This document shows positions 1,681-12,465 of a stretch of DNA of 13,956 bases, piece after piece. Source of the DNA: Desulfobacteraceae bacterium UBA2230 (GTDB lineage: Bacteria > Desulfobacterota > Desulfobacteria > Desulfobacterales > Desulfosarcinaceae); contig DDYQ01000216.1 of assembly GCA_002348005.1 (NCBI GenBank), positions 3,154-17,109 on the forward strand, in the 5' to 3' direction. A program made the translations under genes and the position numbers. The notes below the pieces were generated by a model that worked only from the letters and a program-made list of their open reading frames with translations, did not search any database and was not told the DNA's origin. How positions within the stretch are numbered: position 1 is the first letter of the stretch; every line of letters begins with the position of its first letter.

Positions 1681-4600
1681 ATGCGTCATACTTCTGAACG
1701 CAAGGGACTCTGCGGCATTTGTCCCGCAGGATGCTGGATCGTGGCCAGCTACGATGCGGATGGCAGGATCTGCGCCGTGCGTCCCGACCCGGACTCCCCC
1801 TTGGGCGCCATCTGTAAACTGGGCGAACATTCCGCCGAGATTCTTTATGCGCCGGAGCGTTTACGCCAGCCGTTGCGCCGCAAAGGGCCTAAAGGCACCT
1901 ATGCGTTTGAACCGATCGACTGGGACGAGGCCATGCAGGAAATCGCCGAACGGCTGAAGGCCATCAAGGCTGAGAGCGGCCCGGAGGCTGCGGCCATTTA
2001 CACCGGCCGGGGCAGCTTCGAGCTGGCCATGTGCGACATCTTTCAGCCCAAGGGGGTGGCGGTTTCCTCCGCTTCCAGCGTTCTTTTTCCGTTCGGTTCC
2101 CCCAACAGCATGGGCGTGGGCGCGCTGTGCTACGTATCGTACGCCATGATCGCGCCGCATGTCACCATGGGGGGGATGCACATCGATCTTTTCTCGGATA
2201 TCGAAAACGCCGAATTGATTGTGGTGTGGGGGGCCAATCCAGCCACCGACTGCCCGCCTCTCGACCTGGAGCGGGTTCTGAACGCACGGCGCCGCGGTGC
2301 CGAGGTTATCGTCATCGACCCGCGCCGCACCCAGACGGCCAAGCTGACCGATGCCCGATGGATCCCAATCCGCTCGGGAACAGACGGCGCTCTGGCCCTC
2401 GGCATGTGCCAGGTGCTGATCGAAGAAGAGCTGTGCGATGAAATGTTTGTCGCGCAGTGGGTTCATGGATTCGAACCCTTCGCCCGGTACGTTCAGCACT
2501 TCCGGCCCGAAGTAGTGGAAACGATAACGGGAGTTGCCGCCGATACCATTCGCGGACTGGCCCGTCAGATTGCGGCCGCACACGGCGCCGCACCGATCAT
2601 GTACACCGGTCTGGAGTACAGCGACAGCGGTGTGCAAGCCATTCGCGCCACTCTGGTGCTGTGGGCCCTTGCCGGTCAGCTCGACGTTCCCGGCGGCCGC
2701 TGCTTTGCCATGCCGGCCAACACCTTTCCCATCAACCGGGAAGGTCTGGTGGCCAATCCCAGTCCCCAAAAAGCGCTCGGCCGCGACCGCTTCCCGGTCT
2801 ACAGACTTTACCGGGGCGAATCGCACGCCAACGCGCTCCCGGATGCGGCTCTGAATGGCAAACCCTATCCCCTGCGATCGCTGATTATCCTCGGGGCCTC
2901 CATGATCACAGCCTGGCCCCAACCGCGGGTTTGGCGCAAGGCTCTGAAAGCACTCGATTTCCTGGTGTGTGTCGATGTAACCATGACCGCCGACTGCGCC
3001 TACGCCGATATCGTGCTACCGGCCGCGACATCCTATGAAATCGAATCCTACATGCGCTATGGACCGCTTTTCCGCATACGCGAAAAAATGATCGAACCCA
3101 TAGGCCATGCCCGCAATGGAATATTGATCCTGTCCGAACTGGCCGACCGCCTCGGTTACGGCGACCTTTATCCCCGAACCGAGGAAGCCGTTTTGCGTCA
3201 CGCGTTGCGGGGATCTCCTTTCAGCCTCGAGGAGGTCCGCGCCGCCGGCGGGCAGGTGCAGGTTGAGACGGTGATGATGCAATATAAAAAATGGGAAAAA
3301 GGATTGCTGCGACCCGACGGACGACCGGGCTTCAACACCCCCAGCGGTCAATTCGAGATCGCCTCCACCATCCTCGAAGAACACGGTTATGATCCTTTGC
3401 CGGTCTACACGGAACCGGCCGAAGGTCCGCTTGCGCAGCCACAAACCGCCGAACGCTTTCCGCTGGTCTTTAACTCCGGCGCGCGCGTCGCCACCGATTT
3501 CCGGAGCCAGTTCCATCACATCCCCGGATTGAACCGGATGCATGCCGAACCAGCGGTGACGATCAACAGCGCAGATGCCGAACAGCGCGGCATTCGAAAC
3601 GGCGACCGCGTCGAGGTGCGCTCACCGCGCGGTGCAGTCAGGATGCGCGCCCTGGTGAGCAACGATATTCACCCGGGCGGTGTGGACGCCAGCATGGGAG
3701 GCGGCGGTCCTCTGGGACCATCTGCCTGGCAGGATTGCAATATCAATGAACTGACCGACCTGCGATACGACCCGATTTCGGGCTTCCCGATCTATAAGGC
3801 CTTGCTCTGCGAAGTGGTGAAAGCGGACGAAAGTGCCGCCCGCCTGGAAATCGGATCGGACGAAATCTCGGATCCGGCACCCGCACCGGCGCTTTCAAGC
3901 GCCATGTTCGAACGCATTTATCTGGATCACAATGCCACTACCCCGCTGGACCCCCAGGTGCAGGACGCCATGCAACAGCAGATGAACCATCTGCCTGGCA
4001 ACCCGTCATCGATCTACCGTGAAGGCCGGGAGTCGCGCACGGCCATCGAGGCGGCCCGCCGCAAAGTCGCCGGTCTGCTGGGCTGCACGGCGCGAAGGAT
4101 TACCTTCACGGGTGGCGGCAGCGAAGCCAACAACCAGGTGCTCAAAGGCAGCGCCATGGGTCAAGGCCATCGTCGCAATCACCTGATCACCAGCGCCATC
4201 GAGCACCCCTCCGTACTGAACACCTGCGACTGGCTGCGAAAAATGGGCTTCCGAATCACCCGACTGCCTGTGGATGCAAGCGGATATGTCGACCCCGCAT
4301 CCCTCGAGGATGCGATCGACGACCATACCTTCCTGGTGAGCGTCATGGCGGCCAACAATGAAACCGGCACAATCCAACCTATTGTCGAGTTGGCCCGCAT
4401 CAGCCACGCCCACGGCGCCCTGTTCCACAGCGACGCCGTCCAGGCCGCGGGAAAAATACCCTTGGACGTTCGAGCGCTGGGCGTCGATTTCCTGACCTTG
4501 TCGGCGCATAAGTTCTATGGTCCCAAGGGAATTGGGGTCTTGTACGTGCGCAGGGAGGTGCAGCTTGAGCCGCTGATCCATGGCGGAAAGCAGGAGAACG

Positions 4601-5070
4601 GCCGGCGCGCCGGAACCGAGAACACACTCGGTATCTTAGGGTGCGGCCAGGCGGCCGAATTGGCCGTCGAACGGCTTCATGAATACGCGGACCGTATCCT
4701 TTCGCTGCGCGAGCAATTATGGCTGGGGCTGCAACGAATCGTTCCCGATGTGCAGTTAAACGGCCACCCCGGACAGCGCTTGCCCAACACGCTGAATGTT
4801 TCCCTTCCCGGAGTACGCGGTGAGTCGCTGGTGCTGGCCCTGGATCAGGCCGGCATAGCGCTCTCTTCGGGCTCGGCCTGCCGATCGGGCTCACCCAAGC
4901 CGTCCCACGCGCTTCTGGCCATGGGGCTTTCCGAGGAGCGCGCCCATTGCGCTCTGCGCTTTTCCCTGGGGCTTCAAAACACCCCGGCCCATATCGATCA
5001 AACCTTGTCCCACATTGCCCGGGTGTTGGAAGCTTCGCGCAGCATGGTGCGCTTTGTCTCCTGCCGTTAA
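1681..5070 (+). CDS. Molybdopterin oxidoreductase-cysteine desulfurase fusion; candidate Mo-dependent ergothioneine synthase
   Basis: A single uninterrupted 1129-residue frame holding two complete enzymes. Residues 1-720 are a DMSO reductase-superfamily Mo-bisMGD enzyme: N-terminal [4Fe-4S] motif with Cys11, Cys14, Cys18 and Cys45; likely Mo ligand Cys150 in GALCYVSY; dinucleotide-binding VVWGANPATD (181-190); MGD-binding C-terminal domain at about 593-715. A Pro/Ala-rich linker (about 725-741) leads to a class I NifS/IscS-type cysteine desulfurase (742-1129): YLDHNATT (747-754), GGGSEANN (811-818), PLP-stacking His842, NNETG (892-896), Asp918 and Gln921, Schiff-base Lys944 in SAHKFYGPKG, and persulfide Cys1067 in SSGSACRSGS. 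The desulfurase half is full length with nothing essential missing. There is no Tat signal, so the protein is cytoplasmic, and no Fe-S or membrane subunit gene is adjacent. The egtD-like gene starts 36 bp downstream. The enzyme classes are seen directly; use of desulfurase sulfur by the Mo centre, and hercynine as substrate, are inferred. The alternative is a formate dehydrogenase-like or sulfur-oxyanion enzyme with a built-in sulfuration partner. Confidence 0.93.
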   Translation: MRHTSERKGLCGICPAGCWIVASYDADGRICAVRPDPDSPLGAICKLGEHSAEILYAPERLRQPLRRKGPKGTYAFEPIDWDEAMQEIAERLKAIKAESGPEAAAIYTGRGSFELAMCDIFQPKGVAVSSASSVLFPFGSPNSMGVGALCYVSYAMIAPHVTMGGMHIDLFSDIENAELIVVWGANPATDCPPLDLERVLNARRRGAEVIVIDPRRTQTAKLTDARWIPIRSGTDGALALGMCQVLIEEELCDEMFVAQWVHGFEPFARYVQHFRPEVVETITGVAADTIRGLARQIAAAHGAAPIMYTGLEYSDSGVQAIRATLVLWALAGQLDVPGGRCFAMPANTFPINREGLVANPSPQKALGRDRFPVYRLYRGESHANALPDAALNGKPYPLRSLIILGASMITAWPQPRVWRKALKALDFLVCVDVTMTADCAYADIVLPAATSYEIESYMRYGPLFRIREKMIEPIGHARNGILILSELADRLGYGDLYPRTEEAVLRHALRGSPFSLEEVRAAGGQVQVETVMMQYKKWEKGLLRPDGRPGFNTPSGQFEIASTILEEHGYDPLPVYTEPAEGPLAQPQTAERFPLVFNSGARVATDFRSQFHHIPGLNRMHAEPAVTINSADAEQRGIRNGDRVEVRSPRGAVRMRALVSNDIHPGGVDASMGGGGPLGPSAWQDCNINELTDLRYDPISGFPIYKALLCEVVKADESAARLEIGSDEISDPAPAPALSSAMFERIYLDHNATTPLDPQVQDAMQQQMNHLPGNPSSIYREGRESRTAIEAARRKVAGLLGCTARRITFTGGGSEANNQVLKGSAMGQGHRRNHLITSAIEHPSVLNTCDWLRKMGFRITRLPVDASGYVDPASLEDAIDDHTFLVSVMAANNETGTIQPIVELARISHAHGALFHSDAVQAAGKIPLDVRALGVDFLTLSAHKFYGPKGIGVLYVRREVQLEPLIHGGKQENGRRAGTENTLGILGCGQAAELAVERLHEYADRILSLREQLWLGLQRIVPDVQLNGHPGQRLPNTLNVSLPGVRGESLVLALDQAGIALSSGSACRSGSPKPSHALLAMGLSEERAHCALRFSLGLQNTPAHIDQTLSHIARVLEASRSMVRFVSCR

Positions 5071-5106
5071 AGGGGCCCGGTCAGCAAATGGAAGGAGCAC
5101 GCGAGG

Positions 5107-6099
5107 ATGTCCACAATAAAATCGACTCAATCGGCCGCGGATCTGCTCGCCGGTCAAGACCCGCAACGGCAGATGGAGGCCGATATCCGCACCGGTTTAA
5201 CCGCCAGGCCCAAACAGATTCCCTGCAAGTATCTCTATGATGCCCGCGGATCGGAACTTTTCGAACAGATCTGCGCTATCCCGGAATATTACCCGACCCG
5301 CACCGAATTGAAAATCCTGGAGCAATCGGGATCCGATATCATGAACCTACTGGGCCCCCGGGGAGGCGACCTGATCGAACTGGGCAGTGGTTCAAGTCTT
5401 AAAATCCGCAGACTGCTGGCTTCTATCGATGGGCGCCGACGCCGCAGAATACGCTACATCCCCGTGGATATCAGTGAATCATGCCTGTCGGAGGCCACTC
5501 GGGAGTTGTCCGATCTGCATGCCGATCTGGAGATCAGCGGTGTGGTCGCCGATTTCACCTGTTCGCTGGAAATGCTGTGCGGCAGCCGCAGAAAGATGAT
5601 TCTGTTTCTAGGCAGCACCATCGGAAACTTCTCCACGCCGGAATGCACCGCCTTTCTCGAAAACATTGCCGCGGCCATGAATCATGCGGATTACCTGGTC
5701 ATCGGGCTGGATATGCTCAAAGCGATTCCAATTCTGAAAAGGGCTTACAACGATGCTGCCGGGGTGACGGCAGCCTTCAATTTGAACATCCTGCGACGCT
5801 TGAACCGGGAACTGAACGCAGATTTTGATCTGCGCGATTTCAAGCATGCGGCTGTTTTCAATTCCCAGGACGCCTGCATCGAAATGCACCTGCGGGTCAT
5901 GCGCGACACGACCGTGACCCTGAAGCAGCTGCCACTTGAAGTTGAATTTCGCCGGGGGGAAACCATCCGCACCGAAATTTGCCGCAAATTCAGCCGCAGC
6001 GGGGCCACTGCGCAATTTAACCGGGCCGGACTGGCGCCGGTGCGCTGGTTCACGGATGAACGCCGCTGGTTCTCGGTAGTGGTCCTGCAAAGAAGATGA
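5107..6099 (+). CDS. egtD: EgtD-type L-histidine Nalpha-methyltransferase (hercynine synthase)
   Basis: A 330-residue SAM-dependent methyltransferase expected to convert histidine to Nalpha,Nalpha,Nalpha-trimethylhistidine (hercynine), the first step of ergothioneine synthesis. Length matches EgtD (about 320). Family signatures are KYLYDARGSELF (41-52), PEYYPTRTE (59-67), SAM-binding ELGSGSS (91-97), YIPVDIS (117-123) and FLGSTIGNF (167-175). From memory of the Mycobacterium enzyme, histidine-contacting residues Asn166, Tyr206 and Glu282 map with a constant offset of 8 to Asn174, Tyr214 and Glu290 here; Ser284 maps to Cys292, a possible active-site variant. The start is supported by GAAGGAG (5091-5097) nine bases before the ATG. 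It lies 36 bp after the molybdoenzyme-desulfurase gene on the same strand, so the two are almost certainly co-transcribed. No egtB, egtC or egtE is near. The pairing suggests that the upstream fusion performs the sulfur insertion, as EanB does after EanA in green sulfur bacteria, but with a different enzyme type. The family call is firm; strict histidine specificity is inferred. Confidence 0.93.
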   Translation: MSTIKSTQSAADLLAGQDPQRQMEADIRTGLTARPKQIPCKYLYDARGSELFEQICAIPEYYPTRTELKILEQSGSDIMNLLGPRGGDLIELGSGSSLKIRRLLASIDGRRRRRIRYIPVDISESCLSEATRELSDLHADLEISGVVADFTCSLEMLCGSRRKMILFLGSTIGNFSTPECTAFLENIAAAMNHADYLVIGLDMLKAIPILKRAYNDAAGVTAAFNLNILRRLNRELNADFDLRDFKHAAVFNSQDACIEMHLRVMRDTTVTLKQLPLEVEFRRGETIRTEICRKFSRSGATAQFNRAGLAPVRWFTDERRWFSVVVLQRR

Positions 6100-6750: not shown

Positions 6751-7197
6751 TCAGGAGAGCTTCTTTTTCATTTTTTGCTTTACATTCTGGAAGCTCTCAT
6801 AAATCTCAGATATTTTTTTTTCGTCCAATACCTCCCGCGCGGCCTCGAAAACCTCATCCTCTTCTTCCTCGATGTGGTGTTCAAGCAGTTCACCGAACAC
6901 CTGCATCTTGGCCTTCCATTGGTCTCCCGACTTATCTCCTTTTTCAAGCTCCTTCAGCACCAACTCGGCGACATGATGCTCTTCCAGCGCCTCCAGAGCT
7001 TGTTCGCGGGACTCTTTTTTATCGGCCAACACCGGATAGAAAGCTTTCTCTTCGGCTTCCATGTGGGGTTTTAGTTCAATTATGAATTGCTTCAAAAGGT
7101 TTTCGCGGTTCTTAGGACCGGTTGACTCCTTAAGTTTTTCCAACATCGACTTTACTTCTTGGTGGTCATTTTTAATTTCTTTGAAAAGGTCGTGCAT
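6751..7197 (-). CDS. Hemerythrin HHE-domain protein
   Basis: A 148-residue, highly charged, all-helical soluble protein of the hemerythrin HHE cation-binding family, expected to hold a non-haem di-iron centre that binds O2 or responds to nitrosative/oxidative stress. Candidate iron ligands are His12 (NDHQEV), His45 with Glu49 (PHMEAEE), His74/His75 (EEHHVAEL), and His107/His108 with following acidic residues (LLEHHIEEEEDE). It is a stand-alone domain of usual length, with no chemotaxis or signalling module attached. The start is firm: AGGAGGTG (7202-7209) lies just upstream of the ATG. The gene is visibly richer in A/T and in Lys/Glu codons than its neighbours, which may be composition bias of the protein or recent acquisition. 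It is transcribed alone, divergently from the mla genes. In an anaerobe an O2-binding or scavenging role is plausible but not shown. Confidence 0.93.
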   Translation of the reverse strand: MHDLFKEIKNDHQEVKSMLEKLKESTGPKNRENLLKQFIIELKPHMEAEEKAFYPVLADKKESREQALEALEEHHVAELVLKELEKGDKSGDQWKAKMQVFGELLEHHIEEEEDEVFEAAREVLDEKKISEIYESFQNVKQKMKKKLS

Positions 7198-7477
7198 TCT
7201 CCACCTCCTGATGGGATTTACGGTTTGAATTGCCGCATATTAGGGCGGAACGGTCGGGAAGGGAAATAAGGTATTCAATCAATGGGCCGGCCGACGCCGC
7301 CCGTATTTGGCACCTACAGTTTGGAAGGTGAATCTCCTGGCCGTGAAAGAGCATGACGAGTCTGCGGGCTGCAAATACAAACAACGCGGGGCCTATAATA
7401 CCACTGTCCCCCTATTCACCCCCGAAACTCCAGGTATTACGCTCAGTTTTCGAATGTTTTCAGCTGAAAGAGAAAAG
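7198..7477. other. Divergent intergenic region between hemerythrin and mlaE
   Basis: It should carry promoters for both directions. On the minus strand TAATAT (7242-7237) is a possible -10 for the hemerythrin gene; a -35 at 17 bases is only TTCCCT. On the plus strand the mlaE frame is open back to a TTG at 7307, but residues before Met at 7454/7478 do not resemble MlaE, so I treat this part as untranslated. Confidence 0.4.
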
Positions 7478-8242
7478 ATGGATGTACGGCGCACCGCATC
7501 CCAACTGCAGGACTTCTATATCCTGTCGGTCAAATCGATCGGGTATATTTTCCGTCGTCCTTTCTACCTGGACGAAATCATCGAACAGATGAATTACATC
7601 GGTGTCGGATCCCTGCTGCTGGTGGCCCTGGTATCGCTGTTCATCGGCCTGGCGTTGTCACTGCAAATCTCCACGGAATTGTCCCTTTTAGGATTGCAGA
7701 TGTATACCGGTAACATCGTGGGGGTGTCGATCATCAAGGAGATCGGGCCGGTTTCGATCGGCCTGGCCTTCGCCGGACGGGTCGGTTCGGGAATGGCCTC
7801 GGAAATCGGTTCCATGGTGATCGGCCACCAGGTCGATGTATTGAGAGTTTACGGCGTTCTGCCGCTGAAAAAACTGGTGGTTCCGCGTGTACTGAGCTGT
7901 CTTGTGATGCTGCCGTTGCTGACGGTCATCGGAGATACCATCGCCATTCTGGGCAGCTATTATATCGCCATTTACGAAAGCCATCAGAGCAGCGCCTTCT
8001 TCTGGAGCCAGATCAAGGCCACCCTGACCTTCAGCAACATGCTGACGGGGGTGCTCAAACCGGTCGTTTTCGGGTACATCATCGCTTGCGTAAGCTGCTA
8101 CAAGGGGCTTGCAACCAGCGGCGGAGCCAAGGGTCTCCGTATGGCCACAACCCAGGCGGTGGTCATCTCGAGCATCGCGATCATCGTGGCTGATTTTATG
8201 ATCACACGCTCCCTGATGCTCTTTCTGGGCGAATACGCATGA
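7478..8242 (+). CDS. mlaE: MlaE-family ABC permease (phospholipid transport)
   Basis: Inner-membrane permease of an MCE-type ABC transporter that moves phospholipids between the inner membrane and the periplasm. From the ATG at 7478 it is 254 residues, the usual MlaE size. Hallmarks are the amphipathic N-terminal helix, several hydrophobic segments, the central EIGPVSIGLAFAGRVGSG block followed by ASEIG, LKKLVVPRVLS, and the C-terminal CYKGLATSGGAKG block. Start choice: the frame is open from TTG at 7307 with ATGs at 7454 and 7478. I favour 7478 because purine-rich GAAAGAG (7466-7472) precedes it at five bases and the length fits; 7454 (eight residues more) is possible. The stop overlaps the mlaF start (ATGA), indicating translational coupling. 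Confidence 0.94.
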   Translation: MDVRRTASQLQDFYILSVKSIGYIFRRPFYLDEIIEQMNYIGVGSLLLVALVSLFIGLALSLQISTELSLLGLQMYTGNIVGVSIIKEIGPVSIGLAFAGRVGSGMASEIGSMVIGHQVDVLRVYGVLPLKKLVVPRVLSCLVMLPLLTVIGDTIAILGSYYIAIYESHQSSAFFWSQIKATLTFSNMLTGVLKPVVFGYIIACVSCYKGLATSGGAKGLRMATTQAVVISSIAIIVADFMITRSLMLFLGEYA

Positions 8243-9012
8243 TTGAATTCAATAAGGTCAGTCTCTGTTTCGGAGAGCGCGTCGTGCTCCGGGAGATCGA
8301 CGTGCGTATCGCCCTGCATGAACGCGTAGCAATTGTGGGAGGCAGCGGCTCCGGCAAAACCTCTTTGCTCAAACTGCTGCTCGGCTTGAATCGACCGGAC
8401 AGCGGAAACATTGTCATTGACGGTGAGGAGATCACGCGCCTGTCCGAAAAGGCTTTGGCCCCTATCAGGATGAAATTCAACATCGTCTTCCAGGAGGGGG
8501 CGCTGTTCGACTCGCTCAGCGTCCGCGAAAACACCGCCTTCTGCCTGCGGGAGAAGTTCAAGATGAGCGAAGCGGAAATCGAACGCAAAGTGCGCGACGT
8601 GCTTAGAAGGCTGGGTCTCGAAGAGGCCATCGATTTGATGCCGGAGCAATTGAGCGGGGGGATGCAGCGTCGTGTGGCCATTGCCAGATCACTGAGTGAG
8701 TGTGAACCCAGGATGTTCCTTTACGACGAACCGACTGCGGGCCTGGACCCCATAACGGCTGAACAGATCGGCGATCTTATCGCCGACCTCTCCTCTGGGC
8801 ACGCTCCGAAAAACAAAGGATTTATCATTGTGACCCACCAGGTGCTCGATGTCGCCCGACTGGCCCGGCGTTTGATCTTTTTGCATGAAGGAACCATCCG
8901 CTTCGACGGCGAATTGGCCGAACTGCGACACACCCCGGATCCCCTGTTGCGCACTTTCTTCAAGGAGGTCCTTTCGGGTAACGCTCCGCTGGAGAAGAGC
9001 GATCATGTATGA
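8239..9012 (+). CDS. mlaF: MlaF-family ABC ATPase
   Basis: A 257-residue cytoplasmic ATPase energising the MlaE/MlaD complex. Walker A GGSGSGKT (34-41), Q-loop Gln85 within FQEGALFDSLSV (a sequence typical of MlaF rather than other ABC ATPases), signature LSGGM (138-142), Walker B MFLYDEPTAGLD (159-170) and switch His200 are all present. The C-terminal extension past the H-loop ends in the FFKE region seen in MlaF. It starts inside the mlaE stop (ATGA) and overlaps the mlaD start by eight bases, so the three proteins are made from one message. No STAS-domain partner (MlaB) is encoded nearby. Confidence 0.95.
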   Translation: MIEFNKVSLCFGERVVLREIDVRIALHERVAIVGGSGSGKTSLLKLLLGLNRPDSGNIVIDGEEITRLSEKALAPIRMKFNIVFQEGALFDSLSVRENTAFCLREKFKMSEAEIERKVRDVLRRLGLEEAIDLMPEQLSGGMQRRVAIARSLSECEPRMFLYDEPTAGLDPITAEQIGDLIADLSSGHAPKNKGFIIVTHQVLDVARLARRLIFLHEGTIRFDGELAELRHTPDPLLRTFFKEVLSGNAPLEKSDHV

Positions 9013-10066
9013 CTACAGCAAACGCGTCGCCCTGGCGCGCCTGAAGGTCGGCATCGTGGTAACCCTTGGCATCATGGCGCTGGTGGCGGGCCTTTTGTTC
9101 GCCGGCGGGATCGGCAATCTGTTTACGCGCAAGGTCATCATTCATGCCGTATTCCAGGATGTACAGGGACTAAGACCCGGAGCCCCCGTGCGCTTTTCCG
9201 GCGTGGAAATCGGCAATGTCAAGGAATTGTACTTCGATCCGGCCAGCCGCATTCGTGCCAACCTGTCGATCAGGGCGGATGTTCTGAAGCATTTGAAATC
9301 GGATTCAAAGGCTCAACTGCTGACGCTGGGCCTGCTGGGCGATAAGTACGTCGGCATTACAACCGGTACGCCCCAAGGCAAGCCCCTGCGAGAGGGCGAC
9401 ACCGTTGAAGGCGAACTGGAGCATGGGTTCGGCGATGTGGTCCAATCCACCGAACAAGTGATCGGGCGCGTCAATGCATTCATCGAGAAGATCCAAACGC
9501 TGTTCGACCAACTCGACCTTGAAAACGGCGGCATCGCAAGGCTGCTCTCCGATCCGCAGATTTATCAGGACACCAAGGCCTCAATCCGGTCGTTGGCCCA
9601 GGTGCTCGAAAAGCTCAATTCGGGACCGGGATCGTTGGCGATGCTGCTTAACGACCAGGATCTTTATCGACGGCTTACCTCTGCGGCCGAACAGATCGAA
9701 ACCTTCAGCACCCGTCTTAACACGGCCGAAGGCAGTTTGCAGCGCCTCATCGATGATCCGGTGCTATACGATAATCTTCGCATTGCTTCGCAAAATCTGG
9801 TTGATCTCGTCCGCCAAATCAATGCCGGCGAAGGGACCCTTGCCAAGCTGATTCAAGATGACCGTCTCTATGCCAACCTTGAAAGCTTGACCGCCTCTTT
9901 GGACAAGCTGCTGTCCCGGGTCGATGCCGGGCAGGGAGTGCTGGGCAAACTGGCCCGTGACGAACGCTTTTTCAAAGAACTGCAGAACACGGTGCGGGAG
10001 TTGAACCGGCTGATCAAGGACGTCCGCGCCAACCCCGGCAAATATTTTGATTTCAGTTTGTTTTAG
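9005..10066 (+). CDS. mlaD: MlaD-like MCE-domain protein with tandem C-terminal repeats
   Basis: A 353-residue substrate-binding subunit. One N-terminal transmembrane helix (about 14-36) anchors it in the inner membrane; the MCE domain follows at about 42-118, with VRFSGVEIGNV and LLGDKYVGI. Much of the remainder is five tandem repeats anchored at Gly176, Gly209, Gly243, Gly277 and Gly311, a spacing of 33, 34, 34 and 34. Each has the pattern G-x-L-x-x-L-(L/I)-x-D-x-x-(L/I/F)-(Y/F) and is followed by a predicted helix. E. coli MlaD (about 180 residues) lacks this, so the protein is nearly double length and may form an extended helical barrel or bridge. The start at 9005 is preferred over an upstream in-frame codon at 8885 because it gives the correct N-terminal anchor, has GGAG at 8991-8994, and overlaps mlaF by only eight bases. 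No mlaC or mlaA follows. Confidence 0.93.
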   Translation: MYDYSKRVALARLKVGIVVTLGIMALVAGLLFAGGIGNLFTRKVIIHAVFQDVQGLRPGAPVRFSGVEIGNVKELYFDPASRIRANLSIRADVLKHLKSDSKAQLLTLGLLGDKYVGITTGTPQGKPLREGDTVEGELEHGFGDVVQSTEQVIGRVNAFIEKIQTLFDQLDLENGGIARLLSDPQIYQDTKASIRSLAQVLEKLNSGPGSLAMLLNDQDLYRRLTSAAEQIETFSTRLNTAEGSLQRLIDDPVLYDNLRIASQNLVDLVRQINAGEGTLAKLIQDDRLYANLESLTASLDKLLSRVDAGQGVLGKLARDERFFKELQNTVRELNRLIKDVRANPGKYFDFSLF

Positions 10067-10151: not shown

Positions 10152-11237
10152 TTAGCTCTTCTTGTCGAATGGATCCTCCGGTCTTGTGATGCCTTCTTCT
10201 CTGGCGTGCTCCATTTTGGCGCGTGCTTTATCGACCGCTTCACGGCTCTTATCTTCGGCCTTGTGTATCGCGGCGCTGCTCTTCTCTTCAACTTTCCCGG
10301 CACTTTGGGGGTCCAGAAGATCCTGGCGCTGGGCTTCATCAATGGCCGCCTCTTTGGCATGATGAGCGACGCTGCGGACTTTTTCTATCTGCTCCCTGCC
10401 GGCTTCACGCGCGCGGTCGGCCAGGCTGTCGCGCGCCGAGCCCATCATTTCACGCTCCTTCTCCGTCCGGGGGGCCAGAAGTCCGATCGCGGCGCCGACA
10501 GCAAACAAAATACCGGCCACCGCTAATGGATTGGAATCCAATGAATCGAGGAAACTGCGCTTCGCCTGATATCCCCGCTCCTGTGCACGGTGGCTGAGGT
10601 CCGAGGCCGTTGTCTTGAAATGTTCACTCGACTCCTTGGCTTTCTCGCCCCACTGCTGAGCACGGCTGCGCGCGCTTTCACTCATATCCGACGCGCGACG
10701 TTTGAGGTTGTCGGCGGCTGACCGCATCTTTTCCCGTCCCTCGTCCATTTTGGAGTGGAGTTTCTCCCGTCTCTCTTCTCCCTGGTATTCAGCCGCGGTT
10801 TCGGCACCCATGCTCTCGTAGTAGCGCCGGGCGTAAGGATAATCCAGGTCGCCCACTTCCTCGAAGGATTGCTCGTCATAGGCAGGCACATATTTTTCAC
10901 GTCCGCCAAACCTCTCTTTATCTCTGCCGTCACCCCTGTTGCGGATTAACCAGGCGACGCCGGTGCCCACCAGCATGGTGGGTATAGGGTTATGCCTGAC
11001 CGTATTGTAAACGCTTGTCCCCCAGTCTTTTGTCTTGTAACTTGCTTTTCTGGTCATGATTTGTGCCTTTCCAACAGTTGCATCACGTATTGTCTGCCTT
11101 GTGCGGCTCTTGACGCTATCCATCGACAGCCGACGCTGCAGCTCGCTCATGGTCTGAACGCTCTCATAGCGTGCTCTTTCGATCTCTGCCCGTAATACAT
11201 CCGTTTTGTTTTTTAGGTTAGCTGTTGTTTCATCCAT
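10152..11237 (-). CDS. DUF3618 membrane protein with long amphipathic helices
   Basis: A 361-residue protein of unknown function. The N-terminus (about 9-55) fits DUF3618: LRAEIERARYESVQTMSEL is the family's helical segment. A first hydrophobic segment follows at about 82-99 (HNPIPTMLVGTGVAWLIR). Residues 130-222 are charged, Ala/Lys/Glu/Arg-rich and strongly helical. A second hydrophobic segment at about 225-246 is again introduced by an NP motif (SNPLAVAGILFAVGAAIGLL), then comes another charged helical tail. The two NP-plus-hydrophobic units suggest internal duplication of a membrane-anchor module. The start is supported by AAGGAG (complement of 11246-11251) upstream of the ATG. It overlaps the 3' end of the preceding gene by 25 bp, so it is the last gene of a three-gene operon. 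A role in envelope or osmotic stress is suggested only by association with similar small membrane proteins in other bacteria. Confidence 0.85.
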   Translation of the reverse strand: MDETTANLKNKTDVLRAEIERARYESVQTMSELQRRLSMDSVKSRTRQTIRDATVGKAQIMTRKASYKTKDWGTSVYNTVRHNPIPTMLVGTGVAWLIRNRGDGRDKERFGGREKYVPAYDEQSFEEVGDLDYPYARRYYESMGAETAAEYQGEERREKLHSKMDEGREKMRSAADNLKRRASDMSESARSRAQQWGEKAKESSEHFKTTASDLSHRAQERGYQAKRSFLDSLDSNPLAVAGILFAVGAAIGLLAPRTEKEREMMGSARDSLADRAREAGREQIEKVRSVAHHAKEAAIDEAQRQDLLDPQSAGKVEEKSSAAIHKAEDKSREAVDKARAKMEHAREEGITRPEDPFDKKS

Positions 11238-11611
11238 ATTCGGCTCTCCTTAATACTCGAAATCGCCTGAGTAGGTTTTAAATCGGTTTGCTTCAACCGC
11301 TTGATCCCCGCCGCGGCGATCAGGGCCCCTGCCAGCAGCACCACCACGGCCACAATCAATGCGGCGGCCCACGGCGGTAGCACCGCCGCGAGGGCATAAA
11401 CCGCAGCGAACAGCAATACCAGAAAGCCACCAAACAGTACCACGGCGCCGATCCCGATCATGGCCACGTTCTTGACTGAGCTGCGGGCTTTGGCGGTCAT
11501 TTCGACACGGGCGAGTTCAAACTCCTTGCGCATCATTGAACTCATGCTCTGCGCAAGGTTGGAAAAAAGCTCTCGAATACTGAGTTCTTCTTCGTATTTG
11601 GGCTGTTGCAT
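11213..11611 (-). CDS. Holin superfamily III-like (DUF1469) membrane protein
   Basis: A 132-residue inner-membrane protein. A basic/acidic amphipathic N-terminal helix (about 8-45) with MRKEFELARVEM is followed by two transmembrane segments (about 48-78 and 80-102) and a short charged tail, the layout of the Phage_holin_3_6/DUF1469 family. Despite the family name, there are no phage genes around it, and members in Proteobacteria are usually chromosomal, next to DUF883 and DUF3618 genes as here. The start is clear: GGAGGT (complement of 11618-11623) precedes the ATG at a good distance. The stop lies inside the DUF3618 gene. Function is unknown; lysis activity should not be assumed. Confidence 0.88.
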   Translation of the reverse strand: MQQPKYEEELSIRELFSNLAQSMSSMMRKEFELARVEMTAKARSSVKNVAMIGIGAVVLFGGFLVLLFAAVYALAAVLPPWAAALIVAVVVLLAGALIAAAGIKRLKQTDLKPTQAISSIKESRIWMKQQLT

Positions 11612-11661
11612 GTAAATACCTCCGTTTTAGCATAGTCGCGCAGCTTTGAAATCGCCCATCC

Positions 11662-12078
11662 TCAACGTTGTGACGATTTAAGAAACCGAGCCGCGGCTAC
11701 CCCCAGCAGAAACGCCGCCCCGATCGTAACCCAAGGGCGTTCACGGCCGAATCGCTGGATGTCGTCCACAATCGTATCGACACTGTTGTTCTGTAAATAC
11801 ATGGAATAACGGTCCAGCCGTTCGGCGGCCTTGTGCGCATACTCGCCGCCACGTGATTTGTCGTGTTGAATCAAGTTTTCAGCGGTTTCGCGCAACACCT
11901 CGGCCGTATCCTTGATTTGATCGGCCAATTCGTTCTTCCTTTTGGCCATCATCGGCTTTGCTTTTTCCTTCAAGGTGGATTGATAGCCTTCGCTGTTACG
12001 GGCGCCGGAGGTTTCGCCAAAGCCTTGATACGACCTGGCCGGCTGGGTTCTCGGTTCGAATGTCGGATTTTCTCTCAT
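11662..12078 (-). CDS. DUF883/YqjD-ElaB-like membrane-anchored protein
   Basis: From the ATG at 12078 it has 138 residues. A disordered N-terminus (about 1-40) is followed by a long charged amphipathic helix (about 45-110) and a C-terminal glycine/alanine-rich hydrophobic anchor preceded by RERPWVTIGAAFLLGVAAA. This layout matches the DUF883 group (E. coli YqjD, ElaB), tail-anchored inner-membrane proteins linked to stationary-phase and stress physiology. The frame runs upstream to 12135, but I choose 12078 because GGAGGAGAG (complement of 12088-12096) sits nine bases before it. It is the first gene of a three-gene minus-strand operon (50-bp gap to the next). The YqjD assignment rests on architecture and the C-terminal motif, not a long alignment. 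Confidence 0.8.
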   Translation of the reverse strand: MRENPTFEPRTQPARSYQGFGETSGARNSEGYQSTLKEKAKPMMAKRKNELADQIKDTAEVLRETAENLIQHDKSRGGEYAHKAAERLDRYSMYLQNNSVDTIVDDIQRFGRERPWVTIGAAFLLGVAAARFLKSSQR

Positions 12079-12465
12079 GATGGTCTTCTCTCCTCCAACC
12101 CGTCTTGATCGGAATGGGCGAAGCCAATCCGCCACAACCGGGCTCTCATGGGGTTCGGTAAATGTTCTGTGAGTTACAATACTTGCGTAAGATTGCCGCT
12201 CCCAGCAGACTTAACAATACGCATAACACCCCAATTAAATCTTGGCGGTACCTTAGCATTCAGCTGCAGGTGCGGCGAAAAATCAGGCGGGGCAAGGCTT
12301 CACAGGATTGCTGGCGTAGCGGCAGGTGATCTCCGTCTGTTGCCGCGTGTTTGCAGTGATTTATTCCGGCAGAGTGCATGCGGCATCGACGACCGCTGGC
12401 GAGCCCCTGTGTGAGGCCGATCCGCCCGGCGGTAGGGCTGAAAAGGCGAGCTGACGGGTTCGGTA
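12079..12465. other. 387-bp intergenic region between the ABC exporter and the stress operon
   Basis: The minus-strand promoter of the DUF883-like operon should lie here. The best match is weak (TTGTTA, 17 bases, AATCTT, on the minus strand of about 12185-12220). A 37-codon minus-strand frame (12259-12146) encodes a possible single hydrophobic helix but has no Shine-Dalgarno. The rest (12260-12465) shows nothing I recognise, and no T-tract terminator follows the exporter stop. Confidence 0.4.

Follow-up and report, generated by a model that had tools for sequence, protein, structure and literature searches.

The locus considered here raises the question of whether a gene that joins a molybdopterin enzyme to a cysteine desulfurase, and that is followed closely by an EgtD-type methyltransferase gene, specifies an oxygen-independent route to the antioxidant ergothioneine. 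The DNA under study (hereafter the window) is a stretch of 13,956 nucleotides from contig DDYQ01000216.1 of Desulfobacteraceae bacterium UBA2230; its preliminary description proposed such a route as a distinct new chemical solution and added, with reservation, that molybdenum-dependent ergothioneine synthesis might already have been reported. The reservation was borne out by the literature and the novelty was not, since Beliaeva and Seebeck described in 2022, as a third class of ergothioneine synthase, a metallopterin-dependent enzyme (MES) with the same fusion (PMC9516567). The pair in the window is a clear new example of this known class, to which it adds a member, and its chemistry is not new.

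According to the same paper, about 80 genomes lacked a known sulfur-inserting enzyme, and in 55 of them MES is encoded together with a histidine-specific methyltransferase; four homologues from different organisms yielded ergothioneine in E. coli, and the desulfurase and relay residues were tested in one of them, CaMES from Caldithrix abyssi. For homologues, the paper demonstrates that ergothioneine is made and that these residues are required, and it proposes the metal-sulfido step (PMC9516567). C–S bond formation by a Mo/W enzyme was reported there for the first time, with MES, which is also called 'encoded exclusively in anaerobic' species (PMC9516567), and the description of the class is repeated in a 2023 review (PMC10903977).

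Organization of the fusion gene and its product

Both genes lie on the (+) strand, with EgtD downstream of MES and 36 bp between the two open reading frames, an arrangement that had been noted from the letters and is confirmed by the frames and by domain matches (Table 1). Pfam, NCBIfam and Foldseek place in one chain an N-terminal bis-MGD molybdopterin module and a complete C-terminal cysteine desulfurase of the PLP-dependent NifS/IscS type. The top NCBIfam model for the fusion is a NifS-type desulfurase, which matches aa 746-1123 with 472.9 bits and so falls short of the NifS equivalog cut-off (530.75); the next ones are other desulfurases. The AlphaFold model of the protein has a mean pLDDT of 87 and a pTM of 0.81, with values below 50 at residues 732-742 (the linker), 1066-1071 and 1121-1129, the last two segments holding relay cysteines. 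With this predicted model, the first Foldseek matches were acetylene hydratase (2e7z; TM 0.84 by target length) for the Mo module and Nfs1 for the desulfurase module, the latter resembling Nfs1/IscS with a TM of about 0.9 by target length.

Relatives were collected in one scan of genome_contigs with six peptide patterns taken from the window protein, by which distant MES may have been missed; the scan returned 66 loci, 55 of them with the Mo module, and the other 11 (L056-L066), in which the match was confined to the desulfurase part, were dropped. A scan of viral_contigs with the MES patterns returned no relative. The closest relative in genome_contigs belongs to a Syntrophobacteraceae MAG (70% identical). 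Protein matches numbered 4627, and within the best 120 the closest protein besides the window's own is 83% identical. The fusion is no assembly accident: the 55 relatives that have the Mo module come from many phyla, and 54 of them are matched on both sides of the junction, L048 and L051 in two separate frames each; the single relative without a junction match (L055) stops at a contig edge before the junction is reached.

A version of the protein in a public protein set has 1109 aa and begins 20 codons late, leaving out window positions 1681-1740 and, with them, the iron-sulfur cysteines C11, C14 and C18. The start at 1681 is better than this prediction, since the three cysteines precede the 1109-aa start and no readable row in either of two alignments lacks them.

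With CaMES, the window protein shares the domain order, the iron-sulfur cysteines, the cysteine ligand of the metal, the PLP lysine and the relay cysteines, as well as the co-encoded EgtD; the published domain limits give CaMES 1136 aa, compared with 1129 aa for the window protein, and no essential difference was seen in this comparison, made through published residue numbering and domain limits (PMC9516567). EanB of Chlorobium limicola also inserts sulfur into hercynine independently of O2 and is paired with an EgtD homologue, but it is rhodanese-like and uses polysulfide (PMC9516567), and the EgtB/Egt1 sulfoxide synthases act likewise on hercynine from EgtD, but are O2- and iron-dependent and unrelated to MES. 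The reported lack of EgtB and of a rhodanese-type EanB from the window holds for its 11 scanned proteins, none of which has an EgtB/FGE or rhodanese match in Pfam.

Table 1. Coordinates of the MES and EgtD genes and of selected residues in the window; conservation is given for alignment 1, then for alignment 2.
Feature	Position	Strand	Evidence or conservation
MES (metallopterin-dependent ergothioneine synthase), 1129 aa	1681..5070	+	ORF, domain matches, alignments, model
[4Fe-4S] cysteines C11, C14, C18, C45 (CaMES Cys14/17/21/48)	1711..1815	+	54/54 readable rows of 56; 62/62
Molybdopterin module	1858..3801	+	Pfam PF00384, molybdopterin oxidoreductase (aa 60-490), and PF01568, dinucleotide-binding domain (aa 602-707)
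C118, near-invariant cysteine	2032..2034	+	54/55 readable; 61/62
C150, predicted Mo/W ligand (CaMES Cys153)	2128..2130	+	55/55 readable; 62/62
C710, invariant cysteine where the Mo module ends, ahead of the linker	3808..3810	+	54/54 readable; 62/62
Cysteine desulfurase module	3916..5001	+	Pfam PF00266, class-V aminotransferase (aa 746-1107)
K944, PLP lysine (CaMES Lys952)	4510..4512	+	51/51 readable; 62/62
C1067, desulfurase persulfide cysteine (CaMES Cys1074)	4879..4881	+	50/50 readable; 62/62; low-confidence loop 1066-1071
C1128, C-terminal relay cysteine (CaMES Cys1135)	5062..5064	+	50/50 readable; 62/62; low-confidence tail 1121-1129
EgtD, L-histidine N-alpha-methyltransferase, 330 aa	5107..6099	+	TIGR03438, PF10017, PDB 4uy5

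The methyltransferase

The assignment of the second gene to EgtD follows from an NCBIfam score well over the cut-off (TIGR03438, 361.0 bits, cut-off 290.9), a Pfam match of 360.4 bits (PF10017) and a match to the EgtD of PDB 4uy5 at 3.1e-69. The residues lining the site of the M. smegmatis enzyme, which we take to be Tyr39, Tyr56, Asn166, Tyr206 and Glu282, are kept in the window protein as Y44, Y61, N174, Y214 and E290. The position of M. smegmatis Ser284 is occupied by C292; among 35 readable relatives, this position is a serine in 32 and a cysteine in 2. Scans for promoters and terminators gave no more hits than shuffled sequence (2 against a mean of 2.2, and 6 against 6.5, respectively), and no RNA family was matched at gathering thresholds.

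Conserved residues of MES

Two alignments were used, one of 56 rows (the window and the 55 loci), with counts made over the rows readable at each site, and one of 62 rows (the window, 47 loci and 14 proteins); they overlap and are not independent. Residues of CaMES were mapped to the window through the published numbering, which runs ahead by 3 in the Mo module and by 7 or 8 in the desulfurase. All the residues essential in CaMES are present in the window protein and unchanged in every readable relative (Table 1). C1090, the equivalent of CaMES Cys1097, varies (2 of 50 readable rows in the first alignment, 2 of 62 in the second), in keeping with the loss of only twofold reported for C1097S in CaMES (PMC9516567).

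Two further cysteines, C710 and C118, are as well or nearly as well conserved. In the main text of PMC9516567 no word starts with Cys7 or Cys12, which leaves the equivalents of both residues unnamed there, and the passages returned for Cys11 name Cys1135. From its conservation, C710 may be considered a candidate further station of the sulfur relay. The sole change at C118 is C118N in locus L036, whose genome has no detected EgtD; this MES homologue (L036:7983-11381) perhaps acts on another substrate, or the MAG is incomplete.

C150 aligns with a cysteine of acetylene hydratase (PDB 2e7z), which is nearest to the Mo module of MES in both solved fold and sequence and itself has no desulfurase module. 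After the second cluster cysteine, acetylene hydratase carries its catalytic Asp, which we take to be Asp13, and the window protein carries Pro15, the 62 rows having Pro, Ser and Ala in 51, 9 and 2 cases, respectively. This difference bears on the reading of the fusion as an ordinary oxidoreductase or hydratase of the DMSO-reductase family, with a desulfurase of its own that would sulfurate the cofactor once, during maturation. Such a reading would agree with the solved structures nearest to the Mo module, those of acetylene hydratase and of polysulfide/thiosulfate reductase, and with the role of desulfurases in the maturation of other Mo enzymes (PMC9516567); against it, in addition to the replaced Asp, sulfur exchange at the metal site persists in desulfurase-dead CaMES, yet this variant makes about 2000-fold less ergothioneine (PMC9516567), and apart from EgtD no neighbour cluster, among the 14 listed, is found in more than 7 of the 55 loci. 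We consider it extremely unlikely, and a function like that of acetylene hydratase or an ordinary reductase was rejected on the Pro15 (Pro/Ser/Ala) column and on the neighbour clusters.

Linkage of MES and EgtD in relatives

The preliminary description had called for a search for the fused architecture with egtD across genomes, and the linkage proved to be conserved. EgtD lies within 37 of the 55 MES loci, and within 27 of the 34 in which both flanks reach at least 1200 bases. It is placed downstream on the same strand in 19 of the 37, upstream on the same strand in 14 and upstream on the opposite strand in 4, and the pairing seems to have been re-formed repeatedly, because these three arrangements occur. 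When frames of at least 110 residues within 5 kb of MES were clustered, the EgtD cluster was found in 33 of the 55 loci (fewer than 37, the clustering filter dropping some frames that overlap MES), the next cluster in 7 and the others in at most 4, so that EgtD is, among the 14 clusters listed, the only strongly recurrent neighbour of MES; the group present in 7 loci seems to consist of ABC-type ATPases, which form a large family. A merely accidental adjacency of the fusion gene and an unrelated egtD would account for the 7 of 34 well-flanked loci in which EgtD is not nearby, but hardly for its presence in the other 27, in several arrangements and in many phyla, with the next neighbour cluster at 7 of 55; its probability is practically nil, and it was rejected on the conservation of the linkage across unrelated genomes.

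Whole-genome searches covered the genomes of 50 of the 55 loci (L040, L043, L044, L045 and L055 being left out). EgtD was found anywhere in the genome in 47 of the 50, over the cut-off in 41, and in none of the 14 control genomes over the cut-off, one of them having a weak match. It was not detected in three MES genomes (G002, G004 and G036), an absence that carries little weight, since all three are MAGs of untold completeness.

Proposed pathway

Taken together, MES and EgtD almost certainly make up a pathway of the MES type, in which ergothioneine is produced independently of O2; its steps in the window are inferred from the order of the domains, the identity of the residues and the linkage of the genes. 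EgtD would methylate histidine three times to give hercynine (trimethylhistidine), and the C-terminal desulfurase would take the sulfur of cysteine as a persulfide on C1067. The sulfur would then move to C1128 in the C-terminal tail and on, perhaps also by way of C710, to the metal of the bis-MGD cofactor, with C150 as its ligand, from which the metal-bound sulfido group would pass to C2 of the hercynine imidazole. The earlier proposal that the fusion replaces EgtB and EanB, placing cysteine sulfur on hercynine, is thus supported by the work on homologues (PMC9516567) and, at the level of the sequence, by the essential residues and the linkage to egtD.

Alternatively, the fusion may sulfurate a different imidazole or another heterocycle, with EgtD supplying another betaine. 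The three MES genomes, out of 50, in which EgtD was not detected, one of which (G036) has the sole change at C118, and the cysteine at the Ser284 position of the window EgtD would fit such a substrate; the identity of all essential MES residues, an EgtD that scores over the equivalog cut-off with its Tyr, Tyr, Asn, Tyr and Glu contacts kept, and the ergothioneine made in vivo by four homologues (PMC9516567) point instead to hercynine, and a different substrate is very unlikely.

EgtB, OvoA and oxidase genes in genomes with MES

The expectation that egtB would be missing where MES is present holds for most of the 50 genomes, but not for all. EgtB was found over the cut-off in three of them (L001, L031 and L032) and in none of the 14 controls, a result upheld on the translated proteins, and in a fourth genome (L002, a Spirochaetia MAG with no EgtD match) a contig end truncates an EgtB-like frame (L072:3-452), which covers model positions 2-116 of 413 with 138.6 bits. 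Matches below the cut-off to TIGR03440 and TIGR04344, present in 32 of the 50 genomes at E <= 0.001 in each search, were not counted, save for the EgtB fragment just described and the OvoA proteins given below; we think that they are mostly formylglycine-generating-enzyme-like proteins. MES is therefore not always the sole sulfur-inserting enzyme in its genome.

In one of the three EgtB genomes, EgtD is linked to EgtB and not to MES: the Syntrophobacteraceae MAG has an EgtB–EgtD operon (L067:4307-6970) beside genes for methylmalonyl-CoA mutase, MeaB and a membrane pyrophosphatase, on a contig separate from that of MES, and its 19-kb MES locus (L001) has no EgtD. The tetranucleotide profile of L067 correlates with that of the MES contig L001 at r = 0.942, the next of the 54 loci reaching 0.745, which argues against contamination. 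The corresponding values are 0.893 (next 0.813) for the Bdellovibrionales MAG (L032/L069) and 0.874 (next 0.792) for the Spirochaetia fragment, of 3 kb only; for 'Bpl_16' (L031/L068) the value of 0.920 is exceeded by two other genomes and is non-discriminating.

CtaD/CoxA, a subunit of aa3-type oxidase, was over the cut-off in 8 of the 50 MES genomes and in 4 of the 14 controls, and a near-full-length match of at least 540 bits occurs in 20 of the 50, among them the Spirochaetia MAG and all three genomes with EgtB; an oxidase gene is no proof that its host grows aerobically, and a MAG may contain foreign contigs. MES and EgtD travel together across many phyla, and MES is found also where EgtB or a subunit of an O2 oxidase is encoded. 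Given EgtB in three of the 50 genomes and its fragment in another, together with the oxidase subunit in 20, MES is probably not confined to strict anaerobes, and the statement that it is 'encoded exclusively in anaerobic' species probably needs widening; this bears also on the role of ergothioneine in cells that may be exposed both to O2 and to its absence. Some bacteria, such as the Syntrophobacteraceae MAG, might make ergothioneine with EgtB in air and with MES without air, from one EgtD, and C710, perhaps with C118, might carry sulfur from the tail to the metal; we hold this combined proposal as tentative, and somewhat doubtful. Among the literature titles found, none deals with MES in oxidase- or EgtB-bearing genomes.

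OvoA was over the cut-off in 4 of the 50 genomes (L027, L046, L047 and L049), three of Geomonas and one of Citrifermentans; the whole-protein check, made in the genome of L027, showed a complete two-domain OvoA (L070:2216-4321). No paper pairing 'ergothioneine' with 'Geomonas' was found in the literature searched. These Geomonas and Citrifermentans genomes, with both MES and OvoA, possibly allow the synthesis of both ergothioneine and ovothiol.

Other genes in the window

Just upstream of MES, positions 68-1450 encode a protein with a protein kinase domain and an Lcl C-terminal domain (PF07603). Three genes on the (-) strand at 10152-12135 comprise one for a holin-X-like membrane protein (PF07332) and, on either side of it, two whose products match no family above curated cut-offs in Pfam or NCBIfam. 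A hemerythrin-domain protein is encoded at 6751-7197 (-), with a weak likeness, below the cut-off, to the PA2171 ribosome-binding family, and genes for MlaE, an ABC ATPase and MlaD follow one another at 7307-10066, probably as a lipid-transport cassette.
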